DNA of 37,484 bases, taken from positions 1 through 37,484 of the IMG/VR virus record IMGVR_UViG_3300011244_000005; one strand, written 5' to 3'. The DNA is from a virus. The position numbers were made by a program, and so were the translations under genes. Of this stretch, positions 15,101 through 25,783 are shown in pieces (the first letter of the stretch is position 1; each line of letters opens with the position of its first letter). The notes beneath the pieces were generated by a model. The model did no database searches. It was given only the letters and a program-made list of their open reading frames with translations, and had not been told where the DNA came from.

Positions 15101-15810
15101 GATTTTGCGAACCTCGTTCCGCCGTATTGGCGCTCCCAGATATTGAGGAGCTGCTCCTGGCCGGCTTCTTCAGCGGCCTCGAGCATTTCGGCATCGGTCG
15201 GGAGCACGCTCGGGTCGGGCTGGTGCGTGATCGATTTCTTGAGCCAGAAAATAACGGTGCCGATGGTGGACGCGACGTGTTTGTAAACGCCGTTGCGCGT
15301 CTTTTTGATGACGGAAGCGAGCCGCTCTACCAGCGCCGCCAGATCCGGCCGGAAATAGACGAAGCGAAGATTTCCTAGCCCGCCCGCGCTGAAATCGAAC
15401 TCCTGAGTCCGCGTGCCGTAGGCGCTGGCGACGGCCGGGACGGAAAGCCATTGAGTCGGTTTCCCGGTCTTCCAGCTGATGCCCTTGCCAGGCTTCACGG
15501 TGCCGCCGTAATAGCGCAGCCGAAGGCCGAGCTTGTTGATCGGGATGGCGATGCTATCGCCTTCGATCCTGGGCACCTGGACGCTGCGCGCCGCGTCCGC
15601 CCAATAACCGGAATGATCGGCGCCGAGGCGATCCGCAGTGCGGTGATGAATCCCATCCGACTCGAGCCGGGTGAAGTGATCGATCAACTTGAGACGAACC
15701 GCGCCGCCGATCGCTTTCTTCACTGAGTCGCCCAGGGCTTCGCCGGCCAGGTTATTTATCGCCTCGCCTACTTCGTTCAGCCCCTCGGATTCGATAACGA
15801 GCGTGCTCAT
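15097..15810 (-). CDS. Head-tail completion protein (Mu G / HK97 gp10-like)
   Basis: 237 residues. The N-terminal half has the pattern of phage virion-morphogenesis proteins: a helix that leads into LIDHFTRLESDGIHHRTADR, then IAIPINKLGLRLRYYGGTV followed by a Gly/Lys-rich stretch and LSVPAVASAYGTRT. The R-x-x-G-G-x-[IV] strand after a conserved helix is common in gp10/G-like connector proteins. The C-terminal half adds helices with KKTRNGVYKHVASTIG and an acidic end. ATGA overlaps both neighbours. Role in joining head and tail is inferred. Confidence 0.55.
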   Translation of the reverse strand: MSTLVIESEGLNEVGEAINNLAGEALGDSVKKAIGGAVRLKLIDHFTRLESDGIHHRTADRLGADHSGYWADAARSVQVPRIEGDSIAIPINKLGLRLRYYGGTVKPGKGISWKTGKPTQWLSVPAVASAYGTRTQEFDFSAGGLGNLRFVYFRPDLAALVERLASVIKKTRNGVYKHVASTIGTVIFWLKKSITHQPDPSVLPTDAEMLEAAEEAGQEQLLNIWERQYGGTRFAKS

Positions 15811-16685
15811 ATTCGTTCCGGCTGCGTGATATCAAAATGGGTGAGCACTCCATCCTTCATCTCGAAGAATGGGCCGACGGATTCCTCGAGCGCCTGCTGA
15901 AGCGCCTCGCTGAGATGCTCAGCGGAATATTTCAGGTCATCGTTGAACCCGCGATCCTGCGGCTCGACCTGCTTATCGCGATCGATCAGGCCGAATTCCA
16001 TCGCGTCTTTCCGGCTGACGTCCTTGACCCACATGCCGCTATTGAAAGCGAACGGCGGATAGGGATTGCCCAGCGAGTCATCAAACGAAGTCCCGAGAAG
16101 CTCCCAGATGTCGTCATCCTTTAGCGCGATCATGCGGCCGTCGGAGAATGTGCCTCCTACTTGGTCCCAGCGGGCTGCCCAGGTGCGCTCGTTTTTCTTG
16201 GACTCGAGTCGAAAAAGTTCCTGGGCGGGGAACGCATCGAGCACGGCCGGGTCTTGGCCCTGAATGAATTGACCGTAGCCTTGCGCGATCCGGGCATTCG
16301 TTTCGATCACGACCTTCAAACGCCGTTCGCTTCCGAAATCGGTAATCTTTCCGCGTTGCGCTGGATCCGGTTCGTAGCCGATCTCGCGCAGCTTCACTTT
16401 CAAACGCGTGCGCGCCGTCGCCTCATCGATTTCCCCGTTGAGAAGCTGCCGCGTGATATCGTCGATCTCGCCGAGATACTCCGCGCTGGTGACACGCGCG
16501 GAGAAAATAGCGCGCTCCCGGATCGAAGGCTCCATCGCGACCTGGAGTTCCGCGCTCGAGAGCGTGGTCGGCAAAATGGAACGGACCTGCCGCGACTGCA
16601 GTGCCTCGGAAAACTGGACCGGGCGCGAGAACGCGATGTTCGTCGCGACGGCCGCAGAAAAAAGGACGTGCGAGAAACGAGTCAT
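15807..16685 (-). CDS. Minor head / head morphogenesis protein (Mu F-like)
   Basis: 292 residues. The C-terminal half carries a pattern seen in minor head proteins: NERTWAARWDQVGGTFSDGR, then NPYPPFAFNSGMWVKDVSRK and a following DAMEFGLI. Such proteins enter the prohead through the portal. The N-terminus MTRFSHVLFSAAVATN ends in one of the [LIV]-A-x-N motifs shared with neighbouring head proteins (residues 13-16), which suggests removal of a short propeptide. In Mu the F gene lies before the protease; here it comes after capsid and Gp36-like genes, so gene order has been shuffled. The start overlaps the upstream stop at 16682-16685. Confidence 0.6.
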   Translation of the reverse strand: MTRFSHVLFSAAVATNIAFSRPVQFSEALQSRQVRSILPTTLSSAELQVAMEPSIRERAIFSARVTSAEYLGEIDDITRQLLNGEIDEATARTRLKVKLREIGYEPDPAQRGKITDFGSERRLKVVIETNARIAQGYGQFIQGQDPAVLDAFPAQELFRLESKKNERTWAARWDQVGGTFSDGRMIALKDDDIWELLGTSFDDSLGNPYPPFAFNSGMWVKDVSRKDAMEFGLIDRDKQVEPQDRGFNDDLKYSAEHLSEALQQALEESVGPFFEMKDGVLTHFDITQPERI

Positions 16686-17155
16686 AGCCGTTCGAGCTCC
16701 TCGCGGCTATTGCCGCTGTTCCCTTCCTGCACCGTCTCAATAATGCTGCCATTCTGGACGTCGCTCGTTGTCTGCGGGTCATCAGGTTCCGTGATCGGCA
16801 CTTCGCAGCGGGAAATTCGAACGAGATATTTGTCCGCTTTATCCGCGGCCGTCTTCATGGCCTCAGTGAGCGGAAGCCCCATCGAAAGCCGAGTGGCCAT
16901 CTGCTCGATGATGAGCGCACATGCCGACGTCTTCAGGTCGGGCGGGATCGAGTTAGCCAGGTTGCTTACCTTATTTGCTTTGCACCCGCGCACTTCCGCC
17001 CGGATCCGCGCCGCGACGTCGGGCATGATGCGAAGGAACGGATCGGTTTGTCCGACCTCAAGCGCGGCGCTCGAGAATGCATCCATTCCCGCGCCGAGCA
17101 GGTAATCATCGAGGTCGACCCTCGTGATCACGATCCATGTGTTTTCAGCTGGCAT
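16682..17155 (-). CDS. Head-tail connector, Gp36-like (DUF1320)
   Basis: 157 residues. All-helical connector signature: an N-terminal WIVITRVDLDDYLLGAGMDA, a middle with RIMPDVAARIRAEVRGCKAN, and a helix PPDLKTSACALIIEQMATRL followed by LTEAMKTAADKADKYLVRIS. This arrangement matches Mu Gp36/HK97 gp6-like adaptor proteins that form a ring under the portal. The acidic Ser/Asn-rich C-terminus is probably flexible. First of four genes joined by ATGA overlaps. Confidence 0.7.
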   Translation of the reverse strand: MPAENTWIVITRVDLDDYLLGAGMDAFSSAALEVGQTDPFLRIMPDVAARIRAEVRGCKANKVSNLANSIPPDLKTSACALIIEQMATRLSMGLPLTEAMKTAADKADKYLVRISRCEVPITEPDDPQTTSDVQNGSIIETVQEGNSGNSREELERL

Positions 17156-17164
17156 AACTCAATC

Positions 17165-17191
17165 CCGCCCCGAGCTACGCACTCGGGGCGG
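17165..17191. other. Perfect 10-bp inverted repeat between genes
   Basis: CCGCCCCGAG (17165-17174) and CTCGGGGCGG (17182-17191) flank a 7-nt loop between the 43-codon gene and the connector gene. The stem is very stable, but no T-run follows on the minus strand. It may be an attenuator, an mRNA processing site or protection for the capsid transcript. Confidence 0.6.
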
Positions 17192-17214
17192 ATCTGAATT
17201 GTGAGAGGCGAGAC

Positions 17215-17346
17215 TTAGTCCTTCGTTTCGGTCTTGGTTTCGGTCTTCGTCTCCGTCTTCGTTTCGCCGGCCGCCGGAGCGGCTGGCGGTGGAGTCGTCT
17301 CCGTTTTGGTCTCGGTCTTTGTCTCTTCCTTTTTTTCGTCGGCCAT
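17215..17346 (-). CDS. 43-residue Thr-Lys-Thr-Glu repeat protein
   Basis: Starts at an ATG at 17346 and ends at a TAA at 17215. The sequence is MADEKKEETKTETKTETT, a PPPAAPAAG linker, then more TKTE repeats ending KTETKD. It is almost entirely charged and Thr-rich, so it should be disordered. Both flanks hold strong hairpins, and it sits between the major capsid gene and the connector genes, suggesting a separately controlled small protein. Function unknown. The repetitive DNA also opens a Val-Phe-rich frame on the other strand, which I regard as a shadow. Confidence 0.55.
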   Translation of the reverse strand: MADEKKEETKTETKTETTPPPAAPAAGETKTETKTETKTETKD

Positions 17347-17400
17347 AGATGTGTCCTTGTTGTTTAGGGTTTCATTGTTGTCGGCTTTCGCCTTTGCACC

Positions 17401-17440
17401 TCGAAGCCCGCTGGCGATTGCGCACCAGCGGGTGTTTCGA
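17401..17440 (-). terminator. Hairpin downstream of the major capsid gene
   Basis: CCCGCTGG (17407-17414) pairs with CCAGCGGG (17425-17432), and an outer TCGAA/TTCGA pair extends the stem. It lies about 30 bp after the capsid stop on the minus strand. No clear T-run follows, so it may stabilise or partially terminate the capsid message rather than end the operon. Confidence 0.45.
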
Positions 17441-17472
17441 GTGACTCGTTAGGCGAGCCGCCTTTGATTTTC

Positions 17473-18519
17473 TTACGAGACCGTGATCGTCTCCAAACCG
17501 ATGGCGCTAGTGAGAGCGACCAGGCGTTTCCCGGTCGTCACCGCGATGCGCCAGCGCTTGTCGCCCACCTGGCGCACATAGACGGCGCGGCGCTGCCCGT
17601 TGCGCGCGGGCGCAGTGAACGTCTTCAGGTTGCTGAAGTCGTCCCGGCTCATTCCCGGCGAAGCCGTGAAGAGCATCACCACGCTGCCGAAGATGGGCGA
17701 TGTGACGCTCGCGGCGGATGCATAGCGGGGCTGCGGCACCTGCACGCTGGCGTTAAACATCCCGCCCAGCTGCTCCATCGTCATCGTGGAGCTGAAGGCC
17801 TGGCCGGCCAGGTTCTGAGCGCGCAGGGCGAGCAACCGCTTGGTCGCGGCACCCGGCCCATACCAGATGTTGTTCGGCTTGATCATCATGGCGTTGATCT
17901 CGGTGATCACGTCCATGTCCGGGTCTTTGCCCGCGGTGGTGTCCCAGGTCTTCGCGACGTTGGTCGCGCCGGCCACGAGCAGCGCGATCGCCTGCCGCAG
18001 TTCCGTGCGATCGAGGATCCCGAGCAGGAACGCGACCTTGCGCTGCTGCCAGTCGGCATCGAGGAGCTCCTCCTCCTCGTCCACCTCCACCGCCAGGCCG
18101 ATCTCCGGCATCTTCTGGCTCACCATGCTCTTGCTGGTGTTTTGGAGCGTGGTGAAATCCGCCCCGACGCCGCGACGGACATCGAGCGGGTTATCCATGG
18201 CAAGGAACGCGTCGGTGAACCCGTAGACTGGGTAGGTCACATACGCGGAATTATTGCTCATCACTTCCGGCGCGATCTGATCCCGCAAACCCTGCAAGGC
18301 TTGCTGGAGCGGATCCGAATAACGGACCGCGTAGTTCGAAAGGAACTCGTTTGGTGCGTTGGCCGTGAACTGCGAGGCGTTGAAGGCGAGGACGCGATTC
18401 GGGGCGAAGTTTTCGTCCGCCGGATGAATCTCGAACGACTCTTGCGGCGCAATGCCGAGCATGGCCGCGATAGCGTTGAAGGCCAGCGCTTGCCGGCCGG
18501 GTCTTAAGTTGGTGATCAT
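17473..18519 (-). CDS. Major capsid protein
   Basis: 348 residues, matching Mu T-like and other HK97-fold capsid proteins of this size. It contains the long E-loop/spine-type region (FTTLQNTSKSMVSQKMPEIG), an acidic stretch VEVDEEEELLDADWQQRK, and the Ala-rich helical A-domain part RTELRQAIALLVAGATNVAK. Gene order (protease/scaffold, decoration, capsid, connectors) supports the call. Two LAFN motifs at residues 12-15 and 44-47 lie in an N-terminal segment that could be trimmed during maturation, leaving a 301-residue mature chain. The start at 18519 follows the decoration gene by 38 bp. Confidence 0.8.
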   Translation of the reverse strand: MITNLRPGRQALAFNAIAAMLGIAPQESFEIHPADENFAPNRVLAFNASQFTANAPNEFLSNYAVRYSDPLQQALQGLRDQIAPEVMSNNSAYVTYPVYGFTDAFLAMDNPLDVRRGVGADFTTLQNTSKSMVSQKMPEIGLAVEVDEEEELLDADWQQRKVAFLLGILDRTELRQAIALLVAGATNVAKTWDTTAGKDPDMDVITEINAMMIKPNNIWYGPGAATKRLLALRAQNLAGQAFSSTMTMEQLGGMFNASVQVPQPRYASAASVTSPIFGSVVMLFTASPGMSRDDFSNLKTFTAPARNGQRRAVYVRQVGDKRWRIAVTTGKRLVALTSAIGLETITVS

Positions 18520-18557
18520 AATATTTTGTTTGGTTGCTGAATTCGTTAGGCGCGGGG

Positions 18558-20138
18558 TTAAGCGACGATCACAGGAGGCGCGGCCACGCCGGCAGTGCCG
18601 ACAAGGATCCAGCCTTTGACGTCATCGACGTACTCGAGGTCGGCGATGTCGCCCGCATCGGCGAAAACGATCGAGGTGAAGCCGGTCTTCGTTGCCGGGG
18701 TGAGCGTGCCGTCGCCCCCATCGACTCCGAGCACCAGGTTGAGTCGCTGGCCGGGGACGCCATTAGCGAGAGTGAGCGCCTCGGCGCCGCCCGTGGTCAT
18801 CACCACAACGCGCGACGTGATCGGCACCGCGAGCGTGCCACCCGCTTTCACTGTGCCGCTCGTGGCGACGACGACCTTGAAAGGAACGCAATGCGCGATC
18901 GAGACCGGATCGCCCGCGGCCGCAACGGTAAAGCGGGATTTGCCGATCACCCAATAAACGCCAGCCACGGTGGGCAGCGTCTTGACTCGACCGAGCGTGC
19001 CGACGCCTGGCGTGAGCCAATCATCGACCGCGATGGCGGCTTCCGCGACGGCCGGGAGCGACTCTGGCCAGAGACCGAAGAGCGCGATGTTCTTTTTCAC
19101 CACGTCGACTTCGTCGGTGGCGATCTCATCGTTCAGCAGGATGCCGAGAGGCACGTCGCCCACGGCGGAAACCAGCTTGAAATGTCGATCGTCCGCGCCG
19201 CGCACCACCACGTAATTCTTCGTGGCGATCGCCGCGGTGCCATCGAGACTCGCCGTGCCGTGGCTGGTCTGTTGCGGGGTAAACACGACGTTCGTCGCGA
19301 GTGTGCGCCCTCGAAGTCGATGGGCGATCAACGCGAAGAACATTCCCACGCGGAACAAGGCTCGTCTGAATCGACTCACCGCTTCCCGCCGATAGCGCTG
19401 GCGGTTTTTCGCCAGCCAGGCACAAGCCGCGAAGGCCAGGGCCAGGGCGCAGATGACTTCGACCCATCGCACTGCATCAACCGTGAGATATGCCAGGAAG
19501 GCCGCGGGCATCGGGCTGTAGGGAATCGCTGGGGCGATAACCTGGTCGGCCTGATGCAACGGCGTGCCATCCGAGACGAGCTCGAGCGGTGCGACACCGG
19601 CTTGCGCGGGCGACGCCGCGCCGAAGAACAGCGTGCAGCACAGCGCGACAAGCACGGCTTTCGCTGCGGAGCTGATCGCCTTGATTATGTCGGCCTTCTT
19701 CGTCGCGCCCTTCAGATCGTAGCCGTTCGTCGAGGCCAGTTCCGTGAGTTCGGCGACCGTCTTTGATCCGAGATCCACTTCTTCAGCCTCGCCGTCCGGA
19801 TGAGTCCGGAGTTTGAGGACTGTCTCGGTGGCCGGCCGTTCCTCGACGGTGGCGGTGACGCTGAGATGGTGGTCGCGCAGGTATTGCTGCTGCTCGGCAT
19901 CGATCGCCAGCTTCTCGGCGAGAAGCGGCTCGGTGCCGGCCGCGATCAAAGCCTTCTTGCGGGCGAGGACTTTGTCCGGATCGAGGTTGGTCGGAATTCC
20001 GACGGTGACGACAGGCGTCTCCGGCGGGAGAGTGCCTGGGATGGCAGGAGCTTCGTTGACCGCGAGCCCGCGACCGCAGAGGCGGTCAGCGAACGCGGCC
20101 AGCGCGCACCCGAGAACTAACAATTGTCTTTTAATCAT
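18558..20138 (-). CDS. Composite head protein: HeH-like domain, membrane segments and decoration (DUF2190-like) domain
   Basis: 526 residues in distinct parts. Residues 1-28 form a hydrophobic leader ending LAVN. Residues 124-156 (KTVAELTELASTNGYDLKG and onward) look like a SAP/HeH-LEM helix-extension-helix domain, common near phage capsid genes. Residues 161-180 resemble a second signal peptide (ending SPAQA), and 225-243 form a transmembrane helix followed by a basic Arg-rich stretch. From residue 284, directly after GRTLATN, the chain looks like a DUF2190-type capsid decoration protein (VVFTPQQTSHGTASLDG; FKLVSAVGDVPLGILLNDE). Cleavage after LATN by the prohead protease would release that domain. 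Membrane segments in a capsid-region protein are odd; an ancient gene fusion is an alternative. Confidence 0.6.
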   Translation of the reverse strand: MIKRQLLVLGCALAAFADRLCGRGLAVNEAPAIPGTLPPETPVVTVGIPTNLDPDKVLARKKALIAAGTEPLLAEKLAIDAEQQQYLRDHHLSVTATVEERPATETVLKLRTHPDGEAEEVDLGSKTVAELTELASTNGYDLKGATKKADIIKAISSAAKAVLVALCCTLFFGAASPAQAGVAPLELVSDGTPLHQADQVIAPAIPYSPMPAAFLAYLTVDAVRWVEVICALALAFAACAWLAKNRQRYRREAVSRFRRALFRVGMFFALIAHRLRGRTLATNVVFTPQQTSHGTASLDGTAAIATKNYVVVRGADDRHFKLVSAVGDVPLGILLNDEIATDEVDVVKKNIALFGLWPESLPAVAEAAIAVDDWLTPGVGTLGRVKTLPTVAGVYWVIGKSRFTVAAAGDPVSIAHCVPFKVVVATSGTVKAGGTLAVPITSRVVVMTTGGAEALTLANGVPGQRLNLVLGVDGGDGTLTPATKTGFTSIVFADAGDIADLEYVDDVKGWILVGTAGVAAPPVIVA

Positions 20139-20173
20139 GATGGTTGTTGTCGTGGTTAGGCTGCGGTTTTAGG

Positions 20174-20815
20174 TTATGTGGTTGCCGCTGGTTCCATCGC
20201 CTTGAGCAGCGCGGCGTCGGCTGGAGTGGCGCGCATCACGTTGATGGCGTCGTCGATGGAAAGTTCGCGTCCGCCGTTCTTGCGGGCTTCGGCCTGGATG
20301 GCATCGATGCGGACATTGAAAGCCAGGGTGCGGCCGCGCGGCGTGGACAGGTCCGCGACGTCGACCGGCTTGAGCGGATCGAGCGGACTGGCGTTGAGCG
20401 CGGGTTTCTTCGCGTTCAACTTTGTGAGCGTGCCATCGAAGTCGGTCTCGAAGTCCGTCCCCCACTGCGGGCGTTCCGCGGCGGTGATGACGCCTTTGTC
20501 GATCGCGCGATCGAGATGCGCGTTGACGGCGAGCTTCTGGAACTTCGTCGCTTCGGCTTGCGCGGTGGTCGCGGCCGTTTGCGCCGAGGCGACATTGGTC
20601 GCCAGGGTTCCGAGCTCGGCGAGGAACGCGTCCCGGTTATCGCCCATGATGACGACCGAGATTTTCTTTTGGCCGAGCGCGATCTCCATCGGGTCGACGT
20701 TTACTGCGAGCCGGCTGCACGCCGTCTGCAATTCCTGTTCGGTGGGTTCAACGCCGTCGGCGGGCTTCTTCAGCACGTTGAGGGCGACCAATCTGTCGAT
20801 AAGCCATTTTGGCAT
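20174..20815 (-). CDS. Nested scaffold protein from an internal start (Mu Z-like)
   Basis: An in-frame ATG at 20815 begins MPKWLIDRLVALNVL after the disordered Pro/Thr linker, giving a 213-residue protein identical to the C-terminal half of the protease. AAAGGA lies about 10 nt upstream and can act as a ribosome binding site. In phage Mu the scaffold Z is made this way inside gene I. It would supply the excess of scaffold over protease needed for prohead assembly. Confidence 0.55.
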   Translation of the reverse strand: MPKWLIDRLVALNVLKKPADGVEPTEQELQTACSRLAVNVDPMEIALGQKKISVVIMGDNRDAFLAELGTLATNVASAQTAATTAQAEATKFQKLAVNAHLDRAIDKGVITAAERPQWGTDFETDFDGTLTKLNAKKPALNASPLDPLKPVDVADLSTPRGRTLAFNVRIDAIQAEARKNGGRELSIDDAINVMRATPADAALLKAMEPAATT

Positions 20816-21499
20816 GGTGTTTTTGTCCTTTGTTTGGGTTGTTGGTGCTGAGGAGGGATCCTCCGCGTTGGTCCAGACCGGGACGTTCTTCATCCGCGGT
20901 TGATTTGTTAGGCCGACGCTCTGGATTTCGTCCGGCTCGATGATTCCGGTGCGCGCGGCCGATGCCATGTCGTAAAGCCACGCGATCGATGGATACGGCA
21001 GGTAGTGATTCTTCTTGTTGTCGAGCCCGAGATCGTTCCAGGCCGGTTTGACATACAAGCCATCGGCGCGCTGCTGCACGTCGAGGAGATGGCCGTAGCG
21101 CCGATCGTCCGGCCAGCGCACTGGATCCGCGTCGGGATGCCCGCGGTAGATCGGCATCCCGATGAAATCCTTGCCCTGGCGCACGCGATAGGCGTTGAAC
21201 GCTGCAACGATCTTTGTCGCCTGCGCCGGCGTGAAGCGCTGGATAAGCTTCTTCAGGCCACCCTTGCCGTCCTCGATCCAGTAATCGGTGTCGCCGTAGG
21301 GAGCGAGCAGCTTATATTCGTCGCCCGCTTCGGCCTCGGTGATGGGCGCGATGTTGGTCGCGATCGAGTAAGCGATACAGCGGTCCGCCGCGGAATTGAA
21401 AGCGAGAGCGAGAAGCCGGCGAAAAGGGCCAACAGTACGCACATACGGCTCAGGCCGGCGCGATGGCGGGAAGAGTTCCTCACAAAATCTGTGTCTCAT
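20174..21499 (-). CDS. Prohead protease fused to scaffold (Mu I-like)
   Basis: 441 residues from the ATG at 21499, chosen because it overlaps the portal stop as ATGA; an ATG at 21532 would add 11 residues. The protease half has the Mu I pattern: IYRGHPDADPVRWPDDRRYG, LLDVQQRADGLYVKPAWNDL, NHYLPYPSIAWLYD and IIEPDEIQSVGLTNQPRM, with His121 and Ser194 as likely catalytic residues. After a Pro/Thr-rich linker the C-terminal half is a Lys/Ala/Glu helical scaffold. The chain carries six [LI]-A-[FTV]-N motifs (residues 32-35, 46-49, 264-267, 299-302, 323-326, 392-395), consistent with self-processing. It organises and then matures the prohead. Confidence 0.8.
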   Translation of the reverse strand: MRHRFCEELFPPSRRPEPYVRTVGPFRRLLALAFNSAADRCIAYSIATNIAPITEAEAGDEYKLLAPYGDTDYWIEDGKGGLKKLIQRFTPAQATKIVAAFNAYRVRQGKDFIGMPIYRGHPDADPVRWPDDRRYGHLLDVQQRADGLYVKPAWNDLGLDNKKNHYLPYPSIAWLYDMASAARTGIIEPDEIQSVGLTNQPRMKNVPVWTNAEDPSSAPTTQTKDKNTMPKWLIDRLVALNVLKKPADGVEPTEQELQTACSRLAVNVDPMEIALGQKKISVVIMGDNRDAFLAELGTLATNVASAQTAATTAQAEATKFQKLAVNAHLDRAIDKGVITAAERPQWGTDFETDFDGTLTKLNAKKPALNASPLDPLKPVDVADLSTPRGRTLAFNVRIDAIQAEARKNGGRELSIDDAINVMRATPADAALLKAMEPAATT

Positions 21500-23367
21500 G
21501 CTGCGATCCTTTCCTGTGCGGCTTCCGTCCATCCGGTTTCGATCGATTTGCGGATGATCTCTTCGAGGACGTCGGCCTGCTTTGGCGCGGCGAGGATCTC
21601 TCGAGCGAGCGAACCGCGAAGTTGCGACTGCATCCAGAGGGCCTTCGATGTGAAGTCCATGTCGTCCGGCGAGAGGACCGCTTCCATGGCCGTGCGCAAC
21701 GGCTGCAGATCGTTTGCAAACGCGATGCGATACTGATCGCGCAACGGCCCAAGGAACCGATCCATGTCCTCTTCGGGCGACAGCTCCACATTGATCGCAG
21801 CTTTCTTCTTCTCTACGCCTGGCTGTCCGCTTTCCGGTTTCCGGTTGCCGAATTCGTCCACTTCCGGCGCCACCGCTTTTTCAAAAATCTTCTCGCCGGA
21901 TTTTGCGAGTGGCACATTCAGCCGCTTGGCGATCGGCCCGATCGGCACTTCGGCGCCGGCGTTCACCATCATGGTCACGCTAGAGCGCAACGCCGACTGG
22001 TCTTCGCTCTTCGGCGCATCGATCGAGACGCGCGCCAGGACCGGCGCGTCGCCGAAATACCAACGGAGCACGATGACATCGATGGCGGCATTGAGCGTCT
22101 CCGATATCCAGATGCAATCGGCGCGCTCCCGGTCTTCCTCGCCTACCTGCTGCACGCTGGCGCCCACGCTTTCCTGGCCGCGCGATTGCGTGCTGAGGTC
22201 GGCGCCGAGATAAAGCGAAGCCAGGTCACGCTTCACTTCCTCGATGATGTTGTGCATCGGGAGGGAATTGCCGCTGGTCCCGCCGCTGGGCCAGACGATC
22301 TCGACCTTGTTCTCGGTCGCACCGAATTGCGTGCCGCGATAATTCGAACCGAGCGATCGCGCGAGCGCGACAGCGGAATCGCCTTCCGGCGTGCCGCGCT
22401 GCGCAGTGGTGTGAACCACGATGCCAGGCGTCCCGAACTTCTCCGAGAAATTGATGTTGTCGCTCGTGGCCAGCTTGTCGTAGTAGGCGAGCACTGAGGC
22501 CGCGAACATGAGCGGACTTTCCTCGCTAGTGACGAGCCAGGCAGATTCCTGGAGGGGCTCGCCGGAGAACGCCTGCGACATGCCGAGGAAGCGGAGCTCG
22601 CCCGTGCGGCTCTCGAAGAATTCCATCGGCACGTATTCAAACTTCGCCGTGAGACTCGGGACCGACGCGCCGCTTGGCAGCTTAATCTGGCGGGAGCTGT
22701 CCGGATTCCAGATGAGATGATGCGCGGCCGAGCCGAAGCTCTTAGCCTCCATCATCTGCATGACGATCTTCGAGAACCCGCCGCGCACGTTCCGATTGAG
22801 CGCGTGGCCAGCGCGAGCGTTCGCGTAGAAATGTTCCAGGATGAAGGCCTGGTCGTAAGCCATGGGTGAATCGTCGACGCGCTCGATCACGCGCGGCCGC
22901 AGGGCGACGGCTTCCTCGCGTTTCGCCTTTACGTTGCGGATGGTCTTTTGCTGTTTGGCCAGGCGATCCCAAAGCCGCGCGGCCGGGACCAGGTAGCCGC
23001 CCATGTAGCTATCGAGCGCGTTCGAGAGCCCGGCGGCGTTGAACGAGCTGAACGGATTGAACCGGCGAAAACTGAGCATCTCGAGCTGCTCGGGACTGAA
23101 GACCTCGACGTTCGAGTTGGTCTGCGCGGCCGAGACAGAGGCATCGAATCCGCCGCCGACCGGACCCTCCGATTGCGGGCGCGCCGGCGAGGCCGGGATG
23201 GGCAGCGTTGCCGATCCGGAATGGCCGATGGCTCCGTTATGGCGCTTCCTGGGCATAAAATTAGCCCGGAATGGCGCGTGCAACCGGCGTGCAGACTGCG
23301 CGGACGGCTCAGTGGCAGCACAGACCCGCGAAAAAGCGGTGGCGGGGCGTACAGCGCGTCGGCTCAT
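21496..23367 (-). CDS. Portal protein (Mu Gp29-like, DUF935)
   Basis: 623 residues. Family-like features include RFNPFSSFNAAGLSNALDSY, WDRLAKQQKTIRNVKAKREE, MGSQAF-type segment GMSQAFSGEPLQESAWLVTS, then FGTPGIVVHTT and a C-terminal helical clip/crown (LRTAMEAVLSPDDMDFTSKA). It forms the dodecameric ring through which DNA is packaged. The first 37 residues are basic and Ser/Ala-rich and may be an extension or a misjudged start; Met38 (MPRKRHNGA) is an alternative. It overlaps the terminase stop (23364-23367) and the protease start (21496-21499). Confidence 0.8.
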   Translation of the reverse strand: MSRRAVRPATAFSRVCAATEPSAQSARRLHAPFRANFMPRKRHNGAIGHSGSATLPIPASPARPQSEGPVGGGFDASVSAAQTNSNVEVFSPEQLEMLSFRRFNPFSSFNAAGLSNALDSYMGGYLVPAARLWDRLAKQQKTIRNVKAKREEAVALRPRVIERVDDSPMAYDQAFILEHFYANARAGHALNRNVRGGFSKIVMQMMEAKSFGSAAHHLIWNPDSSRQIKLPSGASVPSLTAKFEYVPMEFFESRTGELRFLGMSQAFSGEPLQESAWLVTSEESPLMFAASVLAYYDKLATSDNINFSEKFGTPGIVVHTTAQRGTPEGDSAVALARSLGSNYRGTQFGATENKVEIVWPSGGTSGNSLPMHNIIEEVKRDLASLYLGADLSTQSRGQESVGASVQQVGEEDRERADCIWISETLNAAIDVIVLRWYFGDAPVLARVSIDAPKSEDQSALRSSVTMMVNAGAEVPIGPIAKRLNVPLAKSGEKIFEKAVAPEVDEFGNRKPESGQPGVEKKKAAINVELSPEEDMDRFLGPLRDQYRIAFANDLQPLRTAMEAVLSPDDMDFTSKALWMQSQLRGSLAREILAAPKQADVLEEIIRKSIETGWTEAAQERIAA

Positions 23368-24965
23368 AGCGCGTATCTCGCCTCCGTTTCGGCCTCATCG
23401 CCCACCCGGTTGAAGGCATATTCGTCCTGCGCCATCGGCTCGAAGTCGAAGGGACCCGTTTTGCCGATCAGGGCGTAGTTCGCCAGTTTTACAGAATCGA
23501 AGGTGTCTCCGTGGCGCCCTTCCTGGTCTGGTTCGCAGACGAAGTCGCCCTTCTCCTTTTTGACCAGGCGGAAGTCCTCTCGGACGTACCGCTCGGGAGG
23601 AAGGAGCACATGGTTGTCATCCAGCTCACCCACGAGCAGACCGCCCGTGTATTGCTTCATCGTGATCGGCTCCGGATTTCCCGGCCGCTCGATCGTCTCA
23701 CTGGCGACGACGAGCTCGACCTGGAGCAGGCCGCTCAACGTCTTTTTGACGGTCTGCGCGAAGTAGCGCTCGTTCGTGGCGTCTTCGCAAAGCCTGCGGG
23801 CCGGTCCGCCTTCCTTCCTCGCGGCAACCGCTTGGATGATCAGCCTGGCGCGTTCCAAAGCGATGTCCGGATCCGCCGTCTTCCAGTTCAGGACTGCGCG
23901 GACGATTCGTTCGACTCCGCGCTCTTCAACAACCGCAAAGCTGCTCGGATTGCTCTTTTGTTTGGTGGTCGTCGCCAGATCCCAACCGAGCCCAACCCGG
24001 CCGGGCCCCAACTTGTCGGAGATCCACCGGAGCGCCTGGCCCAGGTCAAGGTCGCTGTTGATGCTGAAGAACTGGCACTCGCCGATGCCGCGACGTTGCG
24101 CAGTGTCGAGCTGCATCAAACCAACGGCGCCGGTGCCGCCGACGACAAACTTGCAGCCGTAGTTTCGATCCCACGCGTCCTTGTCGCTTGCTCGCCGCCG
24201 CGATTCGTCTGGCGAGATCGACGCGCCGGTATCGTCGTCATAAAGCGGGATCCCGTCGGCATACGCGTCCTCGGCTGTGATGCGCAGAACCCACACACCG
24301 AGCTCGCTTCGATACCAGTTACCCTTTGGATTGATTGGGAGCTCCGCGCCGATCGGCGGCGCCAGGAGATCGAAAGAAGGATGCGTGTCGTCCGGCGGCG
24401 GCGTGGTGGTGAAGATCGCGCGATATTCCGGATTCGAGCTGATGATCGGCATCATCGCCTCGAGGATCTCGTTGAACTTTTTCGCGCGGCCGACTTCGTC
24501 TAGGACCAGGTCGCCCGTTTCGCCAACGGCATCGACCGTGAGCGCGACAACTTTCGTGCGCGAGTAGACAGAGTTTGAGTGGTAGAGACGGAACTCCAAC
24601 CGCGTCGCTTCGTAGAGCTCCGCGAAATCATCCGCGCTCAGTCCTACCGGGAGTTTCTTGCCGCCGTCCGAGTCGGCGAGCTCGAGAGAAAGGTTCGCCG
24701 CCTTTGCCTGGCTCGCGATCAGCTGAAAGGCTTTTTGCAGCGCGTCCGATTCCTTGCGGACAATCTCTCGGCCCAAGTCGAGCTTAACGCTGCCGAAGAT
24801 GACGGTATGACCCGGCTCCTTCATCATTTTCCGGAGCGCGATCCGGGAAGCGATCGTGGTCTTTCCGTATTGCCGGCGGGCGAGCAGACCGCAGACGCGA
24901 TGCGCGCGAACGCCCTGCTCGAACTCGCGCTGGCCGGCGCGCACTTCAAAAGCTCGCGCGGCCAT
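23364..24965 (-). CDS. Large terminase subunit (Mu Gp28-like)
   Basis: 533 residues from the ATG at 24965, which shares one base with the TGA of the small terminase. Walker A is LLARRQYGKTT (Lys35), Walker B is DLVLDE (152-157) and the coupling motif is FTTTPPP (185-191). The nuclease half has the expected acidic residues in GLGWDLATTTK (Asp329), CEDATNERY (Asp395) and GRHGDTFDS (Asp487). It drives DNA into the prohead and cuts it. The reading frame stays open upstream to 25634, but that part overlaps the small terminase gene and has no family features. Confidence 0.88.
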   Translation of the reverse strand: MAARAFEVRAGQREFEQGVRAHRVCGLLARRQYGKTTIASRIALRKMMKEPGHTVIFGSVKLDLGREIVRKESDALQKAFQLIASQAKAANLSLELADSDGGKKLPVGLSADDFAELYEATRLEFRLYHSNSVYSRTKVVALTVDAVGETGDLVLDEVGRAKKFNEILEAMMPIISSNPEYRAIFTTTPPPDDTHPSFDLLAPPIGAELPINPKGNWYRSELGVWVLRITAEDAYADGIPLYDDDTGASISPDESRRRASDKDAWDRNYGCKFVVGGTGAVGLMQLDTAQRRGIGECQFFSINSDLDLGQALRWISDKLGPGRVGLGWDLATTTKQKSNPSSFAVVEERGVERIVRAVLNWKTADPDIALERARLIIQAVAARKEGGPARRLCEDATNERYFAQTVKKTLSGLLQVELVVASETIERPGNPEPITMKQYTGGLLVGELDDNHVLLPPERYVREDFRLVKKEKGDFVCEPDQEGRHGDTFDSVKLANYALIGKTGPFDFEPMAQDEYAFNRVGDEAETEARYAL

Positions 24966-25528
24966 CAATCCTTCCAATCCTCCCCGAACATCGCCTGGCC
25001 GAGTGCCTCGATCTTCTCCGAGTGGGTGGCTCCGCTCGTCGCGATCTCCTTCGCGCGTTTGTCCTCGAACCATTCGAGGAAGAGCTCGCAAGTCTTGACC
25101 TGGAACACTTTGGTCTTCAGCTCGAGATCGAGCTGCTTCGTCAGCTGAGCATTCTGCGCGACCCGCAAATACTCCATCTGGCGGAACTCCTCCGAATCCC
25201 GCTGCGCCATCGCCTGCATCGTAAAGAAAGTCTGGCCAAAATCCTGGATCCGTTTCGGGTCCGCCGTCGGGAATTCTTTGCGTAGCAGTTCTTCGAAATC
25301 GCTGGTCAACGAATCCGTGCGCCGAAAATCCCGACGCAAGTTCCACCAGGAGTAAAAATCCGAGAGCGCACCCTCGGAGACCTTGATGCCATCCGCCGCG
25401 AGCTGTTGCTTTGCGAATTTGTGACCGCCGACACAAGCGTCCGACTTCGGCGTGTTGCACCATTCGATGATCTGCTCCTGCCGTTCCTCGGAGAGATTTT
25501 TCAACGGCGAATCCGAGCGTGGCTTCAT
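24965..25528 (-). CDS. Small terminase subunit (Mu Gp27-like, DUF3486)
   Basis: 187 residues, mostly helical. The N-terminal LSEERQEQIIEWCNTPKSDA starts a helix-turn-helix region (to about residue 65, with VSEGALSDFYSWWNLRRDFR) as in DUF3486 proteins; the rest is a long coiled coil (QRDSEEFRQMEYLRVAQNAQ) and a C-terminal segment that should contact the large subunit. It recognises phage DNA for packaging. The stop overlaps the large terminase start. Confidence 0.78.
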   Translation of the reverse strand: MKPRSDSPLKNLSEERQEQIIEWCNTPKSDACVGGHKFAKQQLAADGIKVSEGALSDFYSWWNLRRDFRRTDSLTSDFEELLRKEFPTADPKRIQDFGQTFFTMQAMAQRDSEEFRQMEYLRVAQNAQLTKQLDLELKTKVFQVKTCELFLEWFEDKRAKEIATSGATHSEKIEALGQAMFGEDWKD

Positions 25529-25783
25529 TCACGAGAGTCCCTCCTTGTGCCGGCCCTCTGGCGTGAGGAACCATTCCTTGCGCTCTTCGCCTTCGTCGTA
25601 GCGGAAGTCCGCGTAGCCCTTCGAGTGATTCCACGAGAGAGCGATCTGCAGTTCGTCCGTGCGCAGATCCGGTAAATCCGGCTTTAGCTTGTCGAACAGG
25701 AGCTGCTCGCTCGCGCGGCGGTTCTCCGGAAGTGCCGAGAGAACCATCCGGACGCGCCGGCGAAGGAAAATGGGGTCTGTCAT
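25529..25783 (-). CDS. Small winged-helix-like protein (Mu Gp26 position)
   Basis: 84 residues from an ATG at 25783 (ATGA overlap with the upstream gene). Its pattern, RRRVRMVLSALPENRRASEQ then DELQIALSWNHSKGYADFRY and a beta pair ending EWFLTPEGRHKEG, fits a small winged helix. In Mu, gene 26 has the same place before the small terminase and is structurally undefined. A DNA-binding or packaging accessory role is possible. Confidence 0.55.
   Translation of the reverse strand: MTDPIFLRRRVRMVLSALPENRRASEQLLFDKLKPDLPDLRTDELQIALSWNHSKGYADFRYDEGEERKEWFLTPEGRHKEGLS

Follow-up and report, generated by a model that had tools for sequence, protein, structure and literature searches.

Capsid protease cutting codes are known for few phages. 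The window analysed here, the whole 37,484-nt stretch of an IMG/VR virus record (IMGVR_UViG_3300011244_000005), carries a Mu-type head gene module on the minus strand. A tetrapeptide that recurs in several of its head proteins, [LIV]-A-[FTV]-N, was proposed in a first-pass annotation to be the cleavage code of the prohead protease. Is this motif a cleavage code, and if so, on which side of the Asn and in which proteins is it cut? The comparisons described here make it very probable that a capsid-maturation serine protease cuts A-x-N after its Asn. This code would be the counterpart, specific to the lineage, of A-x-E and L/I-x-E. The earlier proposal is supported in that the Asn is conserved and the code covaries by phage, but its wording was too narrow. 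That wording was dropped because leucine is not general; A-x-N, or hydrophobic-A-N in other lineages, describes the sites better.

The head gene module and its uncultured relatives

The portal protein of the Mu gp29 type (21496..23367; all head genes and sites given for the window lie on the minus strand) matches Portal_Mu (PF06074, E 5e-34). It is followed by a 441-aa head maturation protease with a C-terminal scaffold (20174..21499), which matches Mu-like_Pro (PF10123) with 33.5 bits against a curated cut-off of 25.2. For the protease, a start at 21499 was chosen over an upstream ATG; it overlaps the portal stop. Next come a cement protein precursor (18558..20138), the major capsid protein with a 47-residue N-terminal leader (17473..18519) and a minor head protein with a 16-residue hydrophobic leader (15807..16685). 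The cement protein was assigned from alignments and from its L057 homologue, which when aligned matches Phage_cement_2 (PF09956) with 30.8 bits against a cut-off of 24, the window protein itself having no Pfam match. The minor head protein was assigned from the alignment of its relatives. Downstream of the capsid gene, a 43-residue ORF (17215-17346, minus strand) consists of Lys/Thr/Glu repeats (KTETKTETK).

Profile searches of viral and bacterial contigs with capsid, portal and protease returned two close phages or none, and tblastn found no capsid relatives among isolate phages. A wider group was opened by a degenerate DNA pattern for PPFxFNSGM of the minor head protein, which gave 91 loci. 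Profiles run on these loci identified numerous homologues of the capsid, protease, cement and portal proteins (duplicates included). The closest relatives are two IMG/VR phages with the same module, in which the sites in capsid, cement, protease and minor head protein are kept. The window phage is a Mu-like soil phage with about forty uncultured relatives; all of them place a short tag ending in Asn where the apparently disposable parts of their head proteins end. Neither proteomics nor an assay was found for this phage group. The portals and capsids of the window, L009 and L010 are 74-79% identical, yet the gene at the terminase position (window 23364-25634) differs strongly among these three phages, as if swapped. 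In L095 the capsid profile matches two neighbouring ORFs, which may be a duplication or a broken gene.

Asn sites in the protease-scaffold and other head proteins

All sites named in the first-pass annotation were found at the residues it gave in the capsid, cement, protease-scaffold and minor head proteins, and the protease-scaffold does contain six exact copies of [LI]A[FTV]N. Fewer than one copy had been thought to arise by chance. Composition shuffles gave 0.47 expected copies of [LIVM]A[FTVIL]N vs 11 seen in capsid, cement and protease-scaffold together (2 vs 0.19, 2 vs 0.15 and 7 vs 0.13, respectively). The motif had not been noticed in the tail proteins; genuine tail proteins, terminase and other true genes contain none, with the exception of VATN in the minor head protein, and one further match in the window belongs to an ORF that runs antisense to the minor head gene. 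A-x-N-related sites that had been missed are AAIN at residues 523-526 of the portal, VALN and PALN in the scaffold, and protease Asn 211 (VWTN). A lack of conservation at these positions in relatives had been named as one possible refutation. The comparison did not refute the proposal: the Asn of capsid and cement is kept in dozens of relatives, down to about 25-35% identity.

The fusion of protease and scaffold in a Mu-type head module was confirmed. A catalytic domain of about residues 56-216 is followed by a helical region, and portal and capsid genes adjoin. The AlphaFold model has low confidence at residues 1-56 and 217-227 and is well ordered in between. Foldseek alone gave a weak match (E 0.05). 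After realignment the catalytic domain was found to have an assemblin-like fold (VZV protease, Z 9.1 over 112 residues; T4 gp21, Z 8.4 over 124), with herpesvirus proteases or gp21 in every row to rank 33 and unrelated rows at Z <=4.9. H121 and S171 are invariant in the alignment of 23 homologues and are likely to be the catalytic pair. Two sites precede the ordered domain: LAFN 32-35 in the protease leader (21395..21406) and IATN 46-49 (21353..21364), whose N49 shows almost no variation among 23 homologues. VWTN 208-211 (20867..20878), a conserved site that deviates from A-x-N, closes the catalytic domain, and its N211 is invariant in the 23 homologues. In the model, the predicted catalytic domain lies between Asn 49 and Asn 211. 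The scaffold contains VALN 238-241 (20777..20788), LAVN 264-267 (20699..20710), LATN 299-302 (20594..20605), LAVN 323-326 (20522..20533), PALN 366-369 (20393..20404) and LAFN 392-395 (20315..20326); LATN and LAFN are invariant in three close relatives. The conserved residue is Asn, not the Glu of the L/I-x-E or A-x-E codes of gp21 and giant-phage proteases.

The HK97 fold of the capsid protein was confirmed with its AlphaFold model, for which the best Foldseek match was 3bjq (E 7.8e-13), followed by lambda, HFTV1, HK97 and others. Leader residues 1-29 of the model have pLDDT <50. The site LAFN 44-47 (18379..18390) ends the leader, and the predicted mature start is A48. Only 8 residues are invariant in a 32-sequence capsid alignment, and N47 is among them. 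An equivalent Asn was found immediately before the conserved body in every leader-bearing homologue, the exceptions being one fragment and a few distant leaderless capsids. Two capsid leaders, those of L104 and L028, contain extra inserts with a second site at the insert end and keep the same mature start. The insert in 3300043503_000001 is 30 residues long and ends in an extra LAVN, with the mature start unchanged; the L028 sites are FFAN and QFCN.

The cement precursor consists of a leader, a helical domain of the DLKGATKKA type, hydrophobic segments and the C-terminal cement domain. LATN 280-283 (19290..19301) stands directly before the cement domain, and its N283 column is Asn in 25/25 homologues. 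The helical domain (19660-19800, minus strand; DLKGATKKADII) matches PHROGs 3281 and 10541 and is apparently fused. Upstream sites in the cement protein (LAVN 25-28, 20055..20066) and in the capsid leader (LAFN 12-15, 18475..18486) are weaker candidates, kept in the two nearest relatives only. The cement leaders of most relatives (L027, L057, L060, L097, L085, L046 and others) open with a strongly hydrophobic helix, continue with basic residues and end at the Asn tag; the count of hydrophobic leaders is approximate, since the choice of start Met shortened some leaders in the hydropathy table. Because of this leader we considered that the cement protein might be a membrane-anchored precursor, freed when the head protease cuts at the Asn tag. 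We regard this idea as tentative, and somewhat doubtful. If it is true, release of cement from the membrane couples decoration to head maturation.

The minor head site VATN 13-16 (16638..16649) is identical in the two close relatives, and leaderless minor head homologues start at about the predicted cut. In the portal, AAIN 523-526 (21790..21801) lies in a C-terminal linker. Relatives have IATN and TATN at this site, and with the following residue the linker reads ATN-V in both close relatives and AIN-V in the window. Portal tails contain repeated 3-mers of their own scaffold more often than do the tails of other phages (combined test, p 5e-5, 24 phages). In a simpler 3-mer portal test, the window's own scaffold gave no 3-mer repeated three times.

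A pooled count over regions of the head proteins gave enrichments of 2.6-2.7 fold in the leaders of capsid, cement and protease, 2.0 in the scaffold and 2.1 in the protease catalytic region, the last partly from the boundary site. The portal tail was moderately enriched (1.7), and values near chance (1.0-1.2) were obtained for the portal body, the minor head protein and the mature parts of capsid and cement. A-x-N is near chance in the mature capsid (86 vs 74) and in the minor head regions too. Because so short a pattern occurs at about the chance rate in mature regions, exposure must matter as well.

Covariation of the code and the probable position of the cut

Relatives use variants of the code. 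The window group and L046 have A-x-N, and L057, L027, L021, L083 and others have [LF]-A-N. For each phage the three residues that precede Asn in its own protease leader and scaffold were combined into a profile. Such profiles score a phage's own capsid and cement sites higher than those of other phages (permutation p <= 5e-5 each, 24 and 18 phages). The same p value (<= 5e-5) was obtained when each close group was reduced to a single phage (16 and 14 phages). These permutation results may be inflated by kinship, for which tests based on distances control in part. Similarity of code and similarity of site remain correlated with protease identity controlled (partial Mantel r 0.32, p 2e-4) and among pairs <35% identical (r 0.42, p 2e-4). 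Covariation within a phage is predicted by a shared recogniser and not by a purely structural Asn.

We propose that the Mu-type protease-scaffold recognises A-x-N, usually as [LIV]-A-x-N, in flexible segments inside the prohead and would cut after the Asn. It would free its own catalytic domain at N35/N49 and N211, chop the scaffold, and trim the leaders so that the capsid begins at A48, the cement protein at V284 and the minor head protein at I17. The portal tail would probably be removed after N526. From these sequence comparisons we infer that cutting occurs, that it falls after rather than before Asn, and that the window protease performs it. Residues up to the Asn are shared among substrates and those after it differ (D/E/A in capsids, V/I/T in cement), which fits a cut after Asn. 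Because A-x-N and [LIV]-x-N also share the layout of A-x-E and L/I-x-E, a cut on that side is most likely.

The main alternative is that the same tag is cut before Asn (between A and N of x-A-N), which would then be the first mature residue. Herpesvirus assemblins, which have the same fold as the window protease, cut between Ala and Ser. The residue before Asn is Ala in most relatives (30/36 capsids and 19/25 cement proteins), and a small residue stands at that place in the F-A-E of the B3 group and the L-S-A of Mu as well. In the A-x-N phages, including the window, however, this residue varies freely (F, V, T, I, H, C) and the Asn is fixed, and in the phage codes A-x-E and L/I-x-E it is behind the third residue that the chain is cut (PMC10052503, PMC9026906). 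We consider a cut before Asn unlikely, if the strongest of the alternatives.

The scaffold repeats, together with the presence of the motif in several head proteins, could also suit a binding element, so that the motif would dock scaffold, capsid, cement and portal during assembly and not be cut at all. The observed positions of the motif speak against docking: it ends disposable leaders, flanks the protease domain, marks where the inserts of L104 and L028 end, and is missing from apparently leaderless capsids. In Mu, the portal tail appears to be lost close to the corresponding tag. We judge docking less probable than a cut before Asn.

Self-cleavage by cyclisation of Asn, as in maturation of the nodavirus coat protein or picornavirus VP0, would need no protease, and such reactions typically have Asn at the cleaved bond. 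It is very improbable here. The two positions upstream of Asn are also selected and covary per phage, in the Mu and B3 relatives the layout persists with Ser-Ala or Glu where the Asn would be, and a capsid protease gene lies next door. Finally, A-x-N is a low-information pattern and the relatives share ancestry, but chance or common ancestry of Ala- and Asn-rich sequence is equally improbable, being already contradicted by the shuffles, by column invariance beside diverging leaders and by the own-code tests on remote pairs.

Cleavage after Asn is the reading we carry forward. The first-pass annotation had called the specificity new, and the open-access literature searched describes no Asn-specific prohead protease, although a gap in that literature does not prove the point. 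Systems of this class are known; what appears to be new is the Asn specificity and the occurrence of several codes within the Mu-type family. The code can be read from the repeats in a protease's own scaffold and checked against the other head proteins, and it was in this way that the Asn specificity was predicted. It gives predicted mature termini for uncultured phages.

Comparison with known head protease systems

T4 gp21 cuts after Glu in L/I-x-E (PMC9026906). A likeness to this short code had been pointed out before, and it extends to the assemblin-type fold (Z 8.4). As in the window, one residue is strict and another is set two positions upstream, and scaffold and capsid are both processed, as is predicted for the window; the strict residue is Glu in T4 and Asn in the window. 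SPN3US gp245 cuts after A-x-E, with several sites per propeptide (PMC10052503). The A-x-E layout of gp245 is that of A-x-N, but gp245 and phiKZ gp175 have Glu for Asn and come from giant phages, whose proteases form another branch. Herpesvirus assemblin resembles the window protease in its fold (VZV protease, Z 9.1) and in the fusion of protease and scaffold.

Other codes were found among proteases closer to that of the window. In a neighbouring group (L013, L030, L031, L047, L068, L090, L091) each protease has 8-10 copies of [LIV]-x-N-R vs 0.2-0.35 expected. The capsids of this group are apparently leaderless and lack [LIV]-x-N-R, and one or two copies occur in some of the portals. In B3 (L112:6891-8129) and its relatives (L118, L119, L120) the protease repeats F-[AS]-E. 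FAE or FAD is present in the portal tail of B3, YPCBV-1, PhiKM and Bhz63; RcapMu and RR1-B fit less well. Proteases of the B3/BcepMu type thus resemble that of the window in having their own repeated tag, which in several phages is also in the portal tail, but the tag has Glu and the capsids show no such leader. The codes in this one protease family now comprise A-x-N, [LF]-A-N, [LIV]-x-N-R, [AV]LSA and F-A-E. Such a set suggests that the protease and several of its substrates change code together.

In Mu itself the tag occurs in gpI and in the portal gp29 (at L110:4555-6093 and L110:8057-9142). Mu gpI contains six copies of [LVM]SA, where 0.34 are expected; most of them take the form AALSA or AVLSA. 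The tag is absent from the Mu capsid protein, whose start, as annotated in the record, has been verified by sequencing; the SuMu proteome paper gives no N-termini. The Mu portal gp29 has a single AALSA, at about residue 429. It falls in the C-terminal 124 residues that were not visible in a 2025 cryo-EM study of Mu and whose absence that study ascribes to cleavage by protease I (PMC11915804). The tag offers a testable site for this loss, and like AAIN in the window portal it lies just upstream of the C-terminal segment. The Mu gpI/Z scaffold and the window protein share the PF10123 family, the in-frame fusion of protease and scaffold, the gp29-type portal neighbourhood, and a short tag that is repeated in the scaffold and occurs once in the portal tail. 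They differ in that the Mu tag is [AV]LSA and not A-x-N, and in that the Mu capsid is without a tag.
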